DNA from: Candidatus Gastranaerophilales bacterium
GTDB lineage: Bacteria; Cyanobacteriota; Vampirovibrionia; Gastranaerophilales; Gastranaerophilaceae
Length of the DNA stretch: 61,346 bases
Reading direction: 5' to 3'
NCBI GenBank assembly: GCA_944325875.1
Contig: CALVBU010000014.1
Coordinates: 1-61,346, forward strand
Below are positions 2,816 through 49,635 of the stretch, piece by piece. Under the pieces are notes generated by a model. It saw only the letters and a program-made list of their open reading frames with translations. It was not told where the DNA came from and ran no database searches. Made by a program: the position numbers and the translations under genes. Positions within the stretch are counted from its first letter, which is position 1. Each line of letters begins with the position of its first letter.

Positions 2816-3025
2816 TTGATAAACAACAAAAAATAAATTATAATAACAAATAAGGAGGTGCTATGAAAAACGAAATTATAGCTTTAAAACTCTTATGGGG
2901 GGGGGCTTTACTAACGGTTTAAAATATATTCCTCCTTAAAATTTTGCATTCCAGATGTCTATTGGCTCTGGAGAATTTGAGCTGAATGTTTTATTATAAA
3001 TATAGTATATTAAGCGGAGGATTTT
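2816..3025 (+). promoter_or_regulatory. Poly-G leader of prepilin-like gene, copy 1 (9 G)
   Basis: The promoter is TTGATA (2816-2821), a 17-bp spacer and TATAAT (2839-2844). An SD AAGGAGG precedes a tiny ORF (2863-2922) that holds a run of 9 G (2897-2905). A CCTCCT segment at 2931-2936 is complementary to the pilin SD GCGGAGGA (about 3014-3021). A CCAGA/TCTGG hairpin (2951-2971) ends 54 nt before the pilin ATG. This matches the layout of the leaders at 6.8, 9.9 and 49.5 kb with a different stem sequence. The regulatory role is inferred. Confidence 0.65.
2863..2922 (+). CDS. Leader mini-ORF with in-frame poly-G tract, copy 1
   Basis: This is a 19-codon ORF starting MKNEIIALKL, with an excellent SD (AAGGAGGTG) 2 nt upstream, and it runs through 9 G as W-G-G-A. 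With 9 G it stops at 2920. With 10 G it would run on to a TAA at 2938, immediately after the CCTCC anti-SD. The start resembles the N-terminus of the poly-G glycosyltransferase at 26649 (MQNSIIASKL). It may act as a regulatory ORF rather than as a functional peptide. Confidence 0.5.
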   Translation: MKNEIIALKLLWGGALLTV

Positions 3026-3766
3026 ATGAAATTAAAGGCTTTTACTTTAGCGGAAGTACTTATCACGCTAGGTGTTATTGGTATAGTTGCAGCATTAACC
3101 CTGCCTACATTAATTCAAAAACAACAAGATAAAGTTCTAATTAATCAACTAAAAGTTGCTAATAACACTCTCAACAACATGCTTTTACTAGCTTATAAAG
3201 ACTACGAAACGATTCAATTCTGGTCTAATGACTATATCTACGGAACTTCATATATGGATTATAACCAAGGAAACTTTGAAAAATATTTCTTACCTTATCT
3301 TAAAGTAGCTAAATATTGCAAAAAGAAAGAAGGATGTTTTTCTAAAGATATAACATTCAATAAAAATTATAATCCTGATGATACCATTGACAATAATCAA
3401 AACTATGTAAAGGTTCTTTTGACTAATGGTATGGCATTAGCATTTTCTAGTTTAGACTTTAATACTAAATATCTGCGTGGTGAAATATTAGTTGACGTAA
3501 ACGGCTTCAAAGGTCCTAACACGTGGGGGAAAGATTTATTTTATTTTGCAATCCCAAGTTCAGCCAAAGGAATATATCCATCATTTTCAGATGAGTTTGA
3601 AAAAAACTCTACCGTTGCAGGTTCTTTTTCAACAGATAAAAGATATTCAGACTGCTTAACCGGTACAACAGAAGCATCTAAAGGATATTGCACAGGTTGG
3701 GCATTAAGACAGGAAAACTTTAATTATTTAAAATGCACCAATGCCAACAATTGTGAAGAAAAATAA
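3026..3766 (+). CDS. Type IV prepilin-like protein (WAL-tail class)
   Basis: The 246-residue protein starts MKLKA and then FTLAEVLITLGVIG, a class III prepilin signal: cleavage after Ala, Phe at +1, Glu at +5, then a hydrophobic helix. A prepilin peptidase would process and N-methylate it for assembly in a pilus or pseudopilus. The globular part holds the family signature VDVNGFKGPNTWGKDLFYF near residue 155 and paired cysteines. It ends with a CTGWALRQENFNYLKC tail shared with the 5833-6621 protein. The SD GCGGAGG is a target of the upstream anti-SD. It abuts the convergent gene at 3767 with no gap. Confidence 0.85.
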   Translation: MKLKAFTLAEVLITLGVIGIVAALTLPTLIQKQQDKVLINQLKVANNTLNNMLLLAYKDYETIQFWSNDYIYGTSYMDYNQGNFEKYFLPYLKVAKYCKKKEGCFSKDITFNKNYNPDDTIDNNQNYVKVLLTNGMALAFSSLDFNTKYLRGEILVDVNGFKGPNTWGKDLFYFAIPSSAKGIYPSFSDEFEKNSTVAGSFSTDKRYSDCLTGTTEASKGYCTGWALRQENFNYLKCTNANNCEEK

Positions 3767-5778: not shown

Positions 5779-5783
5779 AAATA

Positions 5784-5823
5784 AAATGTGGCGGTGAATC
5801 ATAAATGCTTCACCGCCACATTT
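5784..5823. terminator. Bidirectional terminator between proC and a pilin gene
   Basis: A perfect 15-bp stem (AAATGTGGCGGTGAA / TTCACCGCCACATTT) sits between two convergent genes, 5 bases past the proC stop codon, with a T-tract on both strands. Confidence 0.85.
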
Positions 5824-5832
5824 AGAAAGCTA

Positions 5833-6621
5833 TCATTTACATTTTGTTTTTGTTTCCCAATTAAGATCATCGCAATATAAATAATCTAGGTTTTCATTAT
5901 ACAAAGCCCAAGCTGTACATTTATACCCTCTAGAAGCACCATCTCCATTAAAAAATGGAGAACATATATTAATCATATCCCCACTAGTAATATCATAACC
6001 TCCGGACGTTTCAAATCCATATGGAACAAATTTATCATTAGCAACTGAAAACATAAAAACATCCTTCCCTAAAGTATTAGGAGGTCTTTTACCGTTGACA
6101 TCTGCCCAAATTTCTATAGAAACTCCACTGTTACCAACAATTCCATTTTCTGCACCACTTAATGCAACCAATGTACCATCTGCTAATATAATTTTATGAT
6201 AACGCGTTTGACGTTCAATATTTCTATCATTTACACCATTTAATCTTTTTATATATACATCAGGAAAACAACCTTCAGCCTTTCTTCCACAATCTTTAAT
6301 GACTTTAAGGTGTTTTACTATTAATGCAGTTGAAGTTCTTTCCATATCTCTATTATTCATAGAATCCGTATCATTATCTCCAGTATCTTGTTCTCCTGAA
6401 TTCACAAAATCATCAGCCCCCCAAACAGTAGGAGAACCATTTTCATTTATAGCTAAAGTAATAGCCTGCGTCATAATTGAGTTAAATTTCTTCAAAGCTG
6501 TGACTATTTGTTTATCTCTATATTTAGCAACAAGCATAGGCATTGTCATAGCGGCAACAACTCCAATTATTCCTAATGTAATCAGCACTTCAGCTAATGT
6601 GAAAGCATTTTTCTTTTTCAT
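5833..6621 (-). CDS. Type IV prepilin-like protein (WAL-tail class)
   Basis: The 262-residue protein starts MKKKNA with an FTLAEVLITLGIIG prepilin signal (cleavage after Ala, Glu at +5) and a hydrophobic helix. The globular domain carries ADVNGKRPPNTLGKDVFMF near residue 178 and ends with a CTAWALYNENLDYLYC tail. It is a secreted, membrane-inserted pilin or pseudopilin subunit by family. The SD CGGAGGA (6626-6632) pairs with a CCTCCG in the upstream leader. Expression is probably governed by the poly-G leader at 6622-6874. Confidence 0.87.
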   Translation of the reverse strand: MKKKNAFTLAEVLITLGIIGVVAAMTMPMLVAKYRDKQIVTALKKFNSIMTQAITLAINENGSPTVWGADDFVNSGEQDTGDNDTDSMNNRDMERTSTALIVKHLKVIKDCGRKAEGCFPDVYIKRLNGVNDRNIERQTRYHKIILADGTLVALSGAENGIVGNSGVSIEIWADVNGKRPPNTLGKDVFMFSVANDKFVPYGFETSGGYDITSGDMINICSPFFNGDGASRGYKCTAWALYNENLDYLYCDDLNWETKTKCK

Positions 6622-6874
6622 TTTATCCTCCGTTCGTTTTTATTATCTGTTTTTCAAAAATTTTGCATCACAAATTGCCGTGTCTGTTGGCACGGCTTAC
6701 TATCAGCTCTTTTCATTCAATCGGAGGTCTAAATCGGAAATGCCTATCCTAACTGTTAGTCGGTAGCCCCCCCCCCCCGAAATCATCTCTATGCTTATCT
6801 TTTGCATATTTGTCTCCTAGTTTAGCTTATTTGCTTTTATATTATTATATTAAACTATTTTTTGAATTTTTCAA
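6622..6874 (-). promoter_or_regulatory. Poly-G leader of prepilin-like gene, copy 2 (12 G)
   Basis: Read on the minus strand: TTGAAA (6874-6869), a 16-bp spacer, TAATAT (6852-6847), SD AGGAGA, the mini-ORF from 6807 with 12 G (6778-6767), CCTCCG (6727-6722) complementary to the pilin SD CGGAGG (6632-6627), and a GCCGTG/CACGGC hairpin (6696-6677) ending 55 nt before the pilin ATG. With 12 G the mini-ORF is translated through the anti-SD to a stop at 6703. The layout is seen; the switch mechanism is inferred. Confidence 0.7.
6703..6807 (-). CDS. Leader mini-ORF with poly-G tract, copy 2 (long phase)
   Basis: The ORF has 34 codons: MQKISIEMIS, four Gly, then YRLTVRIGIS and DLDLRLNEKS. An AGGAGA SD lies 5 nt upstream. 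Twelve G put it in the long phase. With 11 G it would stop 6 codons earlier than the equivalent reading in the 9.9-kb copy, at the conserved GACTAA. The long phase translates across the anti-SD codons CTC-CGA. It is not similar to a protein family I know. Confidence 0.5.
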   Translation of the reverse strand: MQKISIEMISGGGGYRLTVRIGISDLDLRLNEKS

Positions 6875-6956
6875 GGTTTTAATATTTTTGATATTTAATC
6901 ATTACCTAGCTATTTTCAGGACTTTTAAAATATTTAATACCCCCTACCCAATTTAA

Positions 6957-9080: not shown

Positions 9081-9734
9081 TTAAAACTTTATAGGGTAAT
9101 CTTCAGGAATTTGCCAATTATTAAGTTGTATCAATTTTCCATACATATTTGCACCTGCCTTAAGGCCTTCTCGAGTTCCATTCCACTTAACATCTAAATA
9201 AGGTTCTACACCTTTATTTAACATATATTTTTCTCTTGGTTTTGAACTATCACCTGTTCCTGTAGGATAAAACATAAACAAAAACGAGTCCCTACCAGCT
9301 TGCGAATTCGGATCAAAAAATTTCTTAGCTTCTGGATAAAATCTAAAATCCTGTCCTCTATAAGCCAATGCAACACCACTCCCATCTGGGAAATATATAT
9401 ATAAGTTTCCACGACCAAGATCATCCGATCCATAAGAAGTTTTTAGAACTTTTAAATTATCTTTTAGGTATTTATTATAAAAACCTTCAAGACACACTTG
9501 ACTATGAGTATCTGTACAATTCTCAGAAAAATCCCAATAACGCTTATCACCATTTTTTACTTCAGCCTGAAGTATTGCTTGGTTGATATTAGTATAAAAT
9601 TTCTTTAGTCTTGTCTCTACAACCTGCTTACGATGTTTTTGTATCAATGTAGGCAAAGTCATCGCCGCAACTATTCCGATTATTCCTAATGTTATTAATA
9701 CTTCTGCTAAGGTAAAAGCGTTTCTCTTTTTCAT
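9081..9734 (-). CDS. Type IV prepilin-like protein (DYP-tail class)
   Basis: The 217-residue protein starts MKKRNA and FTLAEVLITLGIIG (class III prepilin signal). Its signature block is degenerate (FDPNSQAGRDSFLF). The C-terminus LNNWQIPEDYPIKF matches the ends of the proteins at 12136 and 48692. SD CGGAGG pairs with the CCTCCG of its poly-G leader. The leader is nearly base-for-base that of the 5833-6621 gene although the mature domains differ. Confidence 0.86.
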   Translation of the reverse strand: MKKRNAFTLAEVLITLGIIGIVAAMTLPTLIQKHRKQVVETRLKKFYTNINQAILQAEVKNGDKRYWDFSENCTDTHSQVCLEGFYNKYLKDNLKVLKTSYGSDDLGRGNLYIYFPDGSGVALAYRGQDFRFYPEAKKFFDPNSQAGRDSFLFMFYPTGTGDSSKPREKYMLNKGVEPYLDVKWNGTREGLKAGANMYGKLIQLNNWQIPEDYPIKF

Positions 9735-9986
9735 AAATCCTCCGTTTATATACTATTTTCTATTTTAACATTTTTCATACCAAAAATCACCGTGTCACTT
9801 GGCACGGTTTGCTTTTCAGCTCTTTTCGTTCAATCGGAGGTCTAAGTCGGAAATGCTTTTCTCAACTGTTAGTTGGTAGCCCCCCCCCCCGAAATTCTCT
9901 CTATACTTAGTTTTTGCATATCTGTCTCCTATTTTAGCTTATTTGTTTTTATATTATTATATTAAACTATTTTTCAAAATTTTCAA
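9735..9986 (-). promoter_or_regulatory. Poly-G leader of prepilin-like gene, copy 3 (11 G)
   Basis: Minus strand: TTGAAA (9986-9981), 16-bp spacer, TAATAT (9964-9959), SD AGGAGA, mini-ORF from 9919 with 11 G (9890-9880), CCTCCG (9840-9835), ACCGTG/CACGGT hairpin (9808-9789) ending 54 nt before the pilin ATG. With 11 G the mini-ORF stops 28 nt short of the anti-SD, so by the proposed model this copy is in the short phase. Confidence 0.7.
9869..9919 (-). CDS. Leader mini-ORF with poly-G tract, copy 3 (short phase)
   Basis: The 16-codon ORF is MQKLSIERIS, three Gly, then Ala-Thr-Asn and TAA, with SD AGGAGA. One more G would give a frame ending in the same SDLDLRLNEKS string as the 6.8-kb copy, which reads across the anti-SD. 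Both frames are therefore preserved between copies. Confidence 0.5.
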   Translation of the reverse strand: MQKLSIERISGGGATN

Positions 9987-10000
9987 GTAGTAAAGTCTAA

Positions 10001-26640: not shown

Positions 26641-26648
26641 GAGGAAAA

Positions 26649-27510
26649 ATGCAAAACTCAATTATAGCTTCAAAACTTAGAGGGGGGGGGGGGCTTAACA
26701 ACCAATAATACAAGTATAACTAACCTTCGCCTCTTAATCCATTTACATTTATTTTATTTAGATCAAGTTGATTTTTTTATAAAAAAATTAAAAAATATAT
26801 ACTATTGCAACATTGATTTGTATGTTACACTTACAAAAAATGACCCAAATGTTATACAAAAAATAAAAGACTCTTTTCCGAATGCTAAAATTATACTCGT
26901 TGATAACTTCGGATTTGACATATATCCGTTTATTAAAATAATCAAAAGAATTAATGCATCAGATTATGACTTAATATTAAAAATACATTCCAAAAAGAAG
27001 CTAAAAGACAGAAAAAAAATATTAAAACCTTTAATATGGAATAAAAAAACTTTTAGAAAAGCAATAAATATGTTTATACAAAATAAACAACTTGGAATGC
27101 TAGGACACAAGATTCTTATCATAGACGGAGGTAGTCCTGAAGAAAATGAATTATTATTACCTATCCTAAAAAAATTAAATATACCATTGTTTATTTATAA
27201 AAATTTTATTCCAGGTTCAATGTTTTTTATAAGAAGCTGTATTATAAAAAAATTACAAGAAATTAATCTTCAAGATAAAGAATTTTATTATATTCATACC
27301 CCCAATATCCACTATGGAACTCCAGCACACGCACTTGAAAGAATCTTCGGAATCGTTACTGAATATGAAGGATACTACATAGACGATACTAAGAATAAAT
27401 TACTCAAATTTATTCATAAACTAATTAATATACAAAATTATAAAAAACATAAAATAATTAAATTTTTTGGAATAAAAATTAAATTAAAAAGAAAGAAAAA
27501 CTTGACTTAA
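26649..27510 (+). CDS. Phase-variable RgpF-type glycosyltransferase (out of frame)
   Basis: SD AGGAGG and ATG 26649 open MQNSIIASKLR, then 12 G (26682-26693). In the present phase it stops at 26706. Deleting one G joins it to a 286-residue frame: TNLRLLIHLHLFYLDQVD, DLYVTLTKN, DNFGFDIYPFIK, ILKIHSKKK, FIPGSMFFIRS, GTPAHALERIFG. These match the rhamnan synthesis F family (PF05045), which modifies surface polysaccharide. The 862-bp span is 3n+1, so one G separates OFF from ON. The shorter internal TTG reading at 26818 would lack the N-terminal domain. Confidence 0.75.
26682..26693 (+). repeat. Poly-G contingency tract (12 G) in glycosyltransferase
   Basis: A run of 12 G lies 33 bases into the coding sequence, in AT-rich DNA. 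Tract changes of -1 or +2 restore the frame. Homopolymer runs of this length in reading frames are the standard substrate for slipped-strand phase variation. Confidence 0.8.
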
Positions 27511-48691: not shown

Positions 48692-49405
48692 TTATATCTT
48701 ATAAGGATAATCCTTAGGAACTTTCCAACCATTCAATTTTATTACAGCCCCACATTCTAACATGCCTCCATTTTTACAACGAGATAAAATTTCACTATAT
48801 TTAATTATTTTGTTATAAGAAACACCATATCCTGTTAGCTGTCGTTCTCCAGTCATGAACAAAGTTCCATCATATAGAGAAAATGTCATCTGAAATAAAT
48901 CTAGAGCTACCTTATTAGGATTTTTAGGTCCATTTATATCTATTAGTATTGTAACACTTACAACACCTTGTCGTCCTATATTAACATTACCAAAAATAAA
49001 TACCCCATTATGCAAACGAATTATTTTGTTCACCTGTGCATTTGCAAAACTTCTTATATTATATCCATACTTAGTTAAACCATAACCATCCAAAGTATTA
49101 TACTTAGCATCCACCAAGTATGGAACTAAATAAGTATTAAAAAAAGTATCCATAACATTATGCAAATCATTATTGTCACCATAAGGACCCGCTTTATCAG
49201 ACATCCAATATTTACTATCACCATAATCAACTTCTGCCCTCGTTAAAGCCTGAAAGACCATAGAATAAGTTTCAGCCAACTTTGTCTCGACTATTTTTAC
49301 TTTATATTTATTAATTAAAGTCGGCAAAGTCATTGCCGCCACAATACCAATTATCCCAAGTGTAATTAAAACTTCCGCCAAGGTAAAAGCTTTTTCCTTT
49401 TTCAT
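48692..49405 (-). CDS. Type IV prepilin-like protein (DYP-tail class)
   Basis: The 237-residue protein starts MKKEKA and FTLAEVLITLGIIG. The family block is IDINGPKNPNKVALDLFQM, with the usual Gly-x-Asp partly lost. It ends KLNGWKVPKDYPYKI, the DYP tail. SD TGGAGGA pairs with TCCTCC in its poly-G leader. It is convergent with tgt. Confidence 0.86.
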   Translation of the reverse strand: MKKEKAFTLAEVLITLGIIGIVAAMTLPTLINKYKVKIVETKLAETYSMVFQALTRAEVDYGDSKYWMSDKAGPYGDNNDLHNVMDTFFNTYLVPYLVDAKYNTLDGYGLTKYGYNIRSFANAQVNKIIRLHNGVFIFGNVNIGRQGVVSVTILIDINGPKNPNKVALDLFQMTFSLYDGTLFMTGERQLTGYGVSYNKIIKYSEILSRCKNGGMLECGAVIKLNGWKVPKDYPYKI

Positions 49406-49635
49406 ATATCCTCCATTTATGCACTATTTTTTATTCTAAAAATTTCCAAAACAAAAATCACCGTGACAATTGACACGGTTAATAACTAAATATTTTTTGC
49501 GGAGGAACAAGTTGAAAAGGCTTGTAATACCTTTTAGAAGGCAGCCCCCCCCCCCGAAACGCACATTATATAATGATTTTGCATACATACCTCCATTTCT
49601 TATTTTATTATAAAATATATTTCCAAATATTGCAA
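49406..49635 (-). promoter_or_regulatory. Poly-G leader of prepilin-like gene, copy 4 (11 G)
   Basis: Minus strand: TTGCAA (49635-49630), 17-bp spacer, TATAAT (49612-49607), SD GGAGG, mini-ORF from 49584 with 11 G (49555-49545), CCTCCGC starting 49505, ACCGTG/CACGGT hairpin (49479-49460) ending 54 nt before the pilin ATG. With 11 G the mini-ORF stops 28 nt short of the anti-SD, exactly as in the 9.9-kb copy. Confidence 0.7.
49534..49584 (-). CDS. Leader mini-ORF with poly-G tract, copy 4 (short phase)
   Basis: The 16-codon ORF is MQNHYIMCVS, three Gly, Ala-Ala-Phe, stop; SD GGAGG 5 bases upstream. Same length as the 9869-9919 ORF. With 12 G it would read on through the anti-SD and hairpin to a stop about 105 bases further. 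Sequence outside the MQ start and G-run is not conserved with the other copies. Confidence 0.5.
   Translation of the reverse strand: MQNHYIMCVSGGGAAF

Follow-up and report, generated by a model that had tools for sequence, protein, structure and literature searches.

The leader of a prepilin-like gene in the DNA stretch analysed here (the window, 61,346 nucleotides) is best explained as a phase-variable attenuator, a reading that we consider probable: the number of Gs in a homopolymeric run sets the extent of a short leader ORF and thereby whether the pilin is ON or OFF. A short leader ORF with its own promoter-like site and ribosome site crosses a slippage-prone G-run, and this step is directly visible in the DNA. 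With 11 G (or 10 or 13), the ribosome would halt 11-18 nt past the run, leaving a downstream CCTCCG motif (the anti-SD) free for its predicted pairing with the Shine-Dalgarno (SD) sequence CGGAGG of the pilin, and the intervening hairpin free to form, which would turn the pilin OFF. With 12 G, the ribosome would cross CCTCCG and finish just before or inside the hairpin, opening both structures and turning the pilin ON. Slippage by one G would flip dozens of pilin-like genes independently, and cell-to-cell variety in surface fibres would result. A more extended proposal, to which we give somewhat less than an even chance, is that 40-55 near-identical, independently switching translational devices per genome were derived in one genus from coding-region contingency genes by detachment of the leader, and provide a combinatorial pilin repertoire.

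Results

Layout of the leader in the window

The earlier note on this DNA had described a fixed layout of promoter, SD, mini-ORF with 12 G, CCTCCG and hairpin ahead of the prepilin-like gene, and every one of these elements is indeed present on the minus strand (Table 1), although the promoter-like site is weak evidence by itself given that four such sites occur in the region versus 2.2 expected in shuffles. Most other leader copies have a TATAAT-like box upstream. From the start ATG to the G-run the window leader measures 29 nt, and about the same distance is found across copies. Poly-G is enriched in the window, with 15 overlapping G9 matches where 0.03 are expected, at a GC content of 33%. 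A scan of the window with Rfam 15 at gathering score found only two tRNAs and left the leader unmatched.

Table 1. Position of the leader, its parts and related layouts in the window
Feature	Position	Strand	Details
Window leader, whole layout	6622-6874	-	upstream of prepilin-like gene
Promoter-like site	6847-6874	-	TTGAAA-16-TAATAT; 9/12 matches
Leader start ATG	6807-6805	-	AGGAGA upstream
Leader ORF	6703-6807	-	with 12 G as assembled; 34 aa, MQKISIEMISGGGGYRLTVRIGISDLDLRLNEKS
G-run	6767-6778	-	12 G
Anti-SD	6722-6727	-	CCTCCG, about 40 nt 3' of the G-run
Hairpin	6677-6696	-	GCCGTGCCAACAGACACGGC; T-rich tail; terminator-like by pattern
Pilin Shine-Dalgarno	6627-6632	-	CGGAGG
Prepilin-like gene	5833-6621	-	262 aa; N_methyl PF07963; ATG 6621-6619
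Second full leader copy	9732-9919	-	11 G at 9880-9890; anti-SD 9835-9840
Prepilin-like gene behind second copy	9081-9734	-	N_methyl and DUF6613
Third leader copy, diverged	49403-49584	-	11 G at 49545-49555; anti-SD 49500-49505
Prepilin-like gene behind third copy	48692-49405	-	
Related shorter layout	2864-3028	+	9 G at 2897-2905; CCTCCT; hairpin; CGGAGG; prepilin-like gene at 3026
RgpF-like protein gene	26648-27510	+	12 G inside N-terminal codons; only 11 G would be in frame

The shorter layout at 2897, in which a stop codon follows right after CCTCCT in the single crossing frame, has a counterpart in species G011 (L159); in this second layout, where CCTCCT or CCTCCG is followed by an immediate stop, both loci are assembled in a non-crossing frame. 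The RgpF-like gene, having 12 G, would be OFF as assembled, an ordinary coding-region contingency layout.

Leader copies in related genomes

With a covariance model built on the sequence 3' of the G-run, 39 leader copies were found in the genome of this window (G000, a gut bacterium of the Gastranaerophilales; 2.2 Mb, 41 contigs), a number that is taken as at least 39. The model contained only the last three Gs of the run, and yet all 39 matches have a pure, uninterrupted G-run, of 11 G in 33, 12 G in five and 10 G in one. About 45 G-runs of at least 10 exist in this genome, nearly all of which were read and classified. G012 (contigs CASDPF01), a sister species with about 90% identity to G000, has 55 copies, 50 of them with 11 G, and G006 has one; the detached form of the leader was absent by pattern search from the remaining species of the genus that were searched. 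The reversed pattern, used as a control, gave no match in G000 or G012, and the leader pattern was not found in viral contigs. Matches to the CCTCC pattern outside the genus, across the family, were rejected as leaders, being mostly the reverse strand of poly-C genes with a normal AGGAGG start.

The genome of the window encodes 111 N_methyl prepilin-like proteins, about 40 of which stand behind the common leader. Two orthologous leaders, L027 and L228, have no SD and place the ATG a few bases after the TATAAT box, an arrangement that suggests a leaderless transcript; 11 G and the frame are retained in both.

The length of the G-run varies among paralogues (10-13 G) and between orthologous loci of the two species (12 G in L034 versus 11 G in L077; 12 G in L022 versus 11 G in L098), these numbers being the consensus of a metagenome-type assembly and the comparison being of one genome per species. 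Since 11 G is dominant in both species, most copies would be OFF. This dominance may fit a mostly-OFF repertoire that is one step from ON, and may also reflect a stabilised tract. The pilin ORFs are almost all intact, though their leaders are mostly in the presumed OFF frame.

Reading frames through the G-run

When recomputed, the frame arithmetic of the earlier note proved correct: with 12 G the window leader encodes 34 amino acids and ends at 6703, past CCTCCG, whereas with 11 G (16 amino acids, end at 6756) or 13 G (19 amino acids, end at 6749) it stops before the motif. All three frames terminate upstream of the pilin and none fuses into it. The layout of the window leader agrees with that note's model of variation through a leader ORF and not in the coding region. 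The note had overlooked that G000 also contains related genes (window 26682, L006, L014 and others) in which the G-run lies within the regulated protein's own frame and some G number joins an upstream start to that protein.

Stops in each frame were computed on 97 rows, among them an in-frame-fused gene and a leader that occurs twice; the distinct leaders number 94. The frame read with 11 G (the 11-frame) terminates before CCTCCG in every one of these 94, with the stop at +11 to +20 after the G-run and the hairpin at about +72. The 12-frame is open past CCTCCG in all leaders but L007, L094 and L233, exactly the three that have an open 10-frame, and in L007 and L094 this 10-frame continues into the pilin. 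Closed 12-frames are found in 4 of the 97 rows (one a duplicate) versus 13.6 +/- 2.1 expected from a column shuffle, a lenient test with haplotypes shared among leaders. In L020 and its orthologue L076, one base fewer before the run is matched by a run of 12 G, so that the reading frame is preserved as an 11-frame. As assembled, 33 leaders of G000 stop at +11 or +14 and one at +18, while four (window 6767, L022, L034 and L036) read through and are presumed to be ON; none of the leaders of G012 reads through.

Two alternatives concern the G-run itself. The G-run could be an RNA contact, its length being sensed gradually by an sRNA or by internal pairing, with the leader ORF secondary. Such a case exists in Helicobacter pylori, where the sRNA RepG targets a G-run of variable length in the mRNA leader of tlpB, with a gradual response (PMC8295292), and in our folds the G-run is able to pair with UUUCC or CCUCC. 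However, L020 and L076 preserve the reading frame, beyond length alone, and the run lies within a protein reading frame in most of the genus; we regard an RNA contact as highly improbable. Amino-acid attenuation, in which a ribosome would stall at the three to four consecutive glycine codons of the leader when charged tRNA-Gly is scarce, is scarcely credible. All of these codons are GGG, with no synonymous change in 39 copies, which slippage requires and sensing does not; a stall there would cover neither CCTCCG nor the hairpin, and the regulated genes are pilins and not genes of glycine metabolism. Reinitiation at the pilin by ribosomes that stop at +11 was also considered, and was rejected because the distance is more than 130 nt.

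Predicted RNA structure

Folding of 79 leaders from +25, which corresponds to a ribosome at the +11 stop, paired CCTCCG with the pilin SD at a mean probability of 0.977. The SD was unpaired with a probability of 0.006 in this state and of 0.76 when CCTCCG was masked, the values for shuffled and anti-SD-mutated controls being 0.35 and 0.30. Folding the leader with and without a ribosome block, as the earlier note had proposed, therefore predicts sequestration with the early stop (P 0.98) and release when CCTCCG is covered, and the predicted sequestration, together with the layout and the frame logic, holds across the leaders of three genomes. Every aligned leader retains the anti-SD, allowing for the minor variants CCTCCT and CCTCTG, and RNAalifold, unprompted, picks the same SD/anti-SD helix and the same hairpin. 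There is almost no covariation in this helix among the aligned leaders, whose sequences are too conserved, and the helix is thus a prediction from conserved sequence.

In 35 leaders the stop of the 12-frame lies 8-9 nt upstream of the hairpin. In nearly all others it falls 2 nt short of the hairpin, inside it or past it, and just 3 of 92 have an earlier stop. Given these positions, read-through would disturb both structures. An early stop well ahead of the hairpin combined with a shifted-frame stop close to, within or beyond it, in a leader ORF that has its own start signals and contains a slippage-prone repeat, is the geometry of the pil1 locus of Streptococcus gallolyticus, and we find it in 89 of the 92 leaders. 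GCAGA repeats in the leader peptide of pil1 and pil3 change where its stop codon falls with respect to a terminator, and pilus transcription is higher when the leader is longer (Danne et al. 2014, PMC3894217). The earlier note does not mention this experimental precedent.

Pure transcription attenuation as in pil1, in which the hairpin would be a premature terminator averted only by the ribosome of the 12-G leader and CCTCCG would be incidental, draws on exactly this placement of the read-through stops (8-9 nt before, or within or beyond, the hairpin), on the terminator-like pattern of the hairpin and on the likeness to a proven case. The hairpin itself is weak, however, with a stem of 5-6 bp and a short, often interrupted T-tract (the longest T-run is 5 in 45 of the 92 leaders and 3 in 32), and pure attenuation leaves unexplained both the conservation of CCTCCG at a fixed place and its folding onto the pilin SD. 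We consider it unlikely as the whole explanation. Within the phase-variable attenuator, we lean towards release of the pilin SD, a translational effect, as the opening that matters more, and give a lesser but substantial share to antitermination at the hairpin or to both. In many copies the 12-frame stops at about +64 and CCTCCG would be covered only transiently, which weakens pure SD release. The hairpin, overlooked in this role by the earlier note, may be the actual control point, that is, an attenuator.

Genes with the G-run in their own frame

Several genes of G000, and genes of other species in the genus, have the G-run within the prepilin frame itself, in its N-terminal leader (e.g. MKTIAMTEFTGGGQ...AFTLAEVLITLGIIG); the N-terminal leaders of RgpF-like and Stealth-like proteins contain it too. 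The distance from start codon to G-run in these fused genes is about equal to that in the detached leaders. CCTCC at a fixed distance typifies the detached leaders; among in-frame-fused genes it is present only in L007, L094 and L233, intermediates in which the detached layout goes together with a fusion that is in frame at 10 G. We infer from these sequences that leaders became detached from an originally fused form.

Across the genus (L006, L013, L014, L026, L032 and L106-L185), 64 fused tracts were counted with orthologues kept in the count; seven are in frame, 46 exceed the in-frame number by one G, and the remaining 11 have one too few or two too many. Among these tracts +1 G is commoner than -1. 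A single programmed frameshift behind the prevalent frames was rejected: the detached leaders would need -1 and the fused genes +1, so that one frameshift cannot account for both. Transcriptional slippage in both directions is a possible cause of these frames.

In L013, L117 and L170 (and L047), poly-G lies in the N-terminus of a protein with a IDIVYLWVDGNDP motif, which we take to resemble Stealth-type sugar-phosphate transferases. In three other genera of the family (g7, g35 and g51; L188, L190, L193-L196 and L202-L207), genes carry a poly-C run some 10 codons downstream of an AGGAGG-ATG start, in what looks like the same contingency design, with proline codons in place of glycine codons.

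Turnover of leader-pilin cassettes

About one third of the orthologous sites of G000 and G012 share the upstream flank but differ in the pilin (L085/L029, L076/L020, L098/L022 and L101/L033). G012 lacks the leader-pilin cassette at 6767 (window 5782-6956) beside proC, as do the other relatives where the site was found, and at the 9880 site (window 9081-9990) G012 has a different pilin that lacks a G-run. Cassettes missing or swapped between species indicate that they are gained and exchanged often and recently. Because the copies share recent ancestry and exchange cassettes, conservation of the leader is not independent evidence, and cassette exchange alone could conserve it; this is the main rival to functional constraint.

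Taken to its end, this rival holds that there is no regulation: the leader would be kept through recombination of pilin cassettes (gene conversion), and the G-run, kept near 11 by mutational equilibrium, would simply travel with the leader. The different pilins behind shared flanks, the absence of the window cassette from its site in relatives and the dominance of 11 G all agree with it. What it does not account for is the frame-specific openness with its complementary exceptions (L007, L094 and L233), the folding of the anti-SD, and the persistence of pure G-runs before intact pilin ORFs in a genome of 33% GC, and we consider it quite improbable.

Discussion

Phase variation through a leader ORF has been demonstrated for the pilus loci of one streptococcus, and the leaders described here point to the same logic, built from different parts, in an unrelated and mostly uncultured gut lineage, a relative of the cyanobacteria. 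In the literature searched, phase variation was not reported for Gastranaerophilales or Melainabacteria. The principle is known from pil1 and pil3; what differs here is the lineage and the copy number, along with the use of a homopolymer and of a conserved anti-SD with a weaker hairpin. The intermediates L007, L094 and L233 outline a possible route from ordinary frame-switching genes to a detached leader. If the phase-variable attenuator is real, single cells would display different pilin sets according to a simple rule, the G number modulo 3, that is testable on existing metagenome reads.

In coding-region homopolymer contingency genes, a G-run near the start codon switches the frame in or out. 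The fused genes of this genus share this design, with a G-run near the start that would shift the frame, mostly to OFF, whereas the pilin of the window has its own start and SD and is entered by no leader frame. In erm-type translational attenuators, a translated leader ORF unmasks a sequestered ribosome site under the control of drug-induced stalling. Translation of the leader would similarly free a hidden ribosome site in the leaders of G000, but repeat length, and not stalling, would govern it.

The closest likeness is to pil1 and pil3, where a simple repeat also lies within a leader ORF ahead of pilus genes, the majority state stops early, the shifted frame stops close ahead of a hairpin or inside it, and mixed populations are thought to result (PMC3894217). 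The differences lie in the repeat (GCAGA units versus a G homopolymer), in the scale (one or two pilus operons versus 39-55 prepilin-like genes per genome in G000 and G012), and in the structure, a strong terminator there and here a weaker hairpin with a conserved anti-SD that, by prediction, hides the ribosome site of the pilin; the phyla are unrelated, and function is proven in the one and predicted in the other. RepG/tlpB shares with these leaders a length-variable G-run in an mRNA leader that acts after transcription (PMC8295292), but here the leader is a translated ORF with frame-dependent stops. In espR of Mycobacterium tuberculosis, a homopolymer indel in the 5'UTR alters translation of the downstream gene; unlike the leaders of Gastranaerophilales, it works through a changed 5'UTR structure and at a single locus (PMC11898584).
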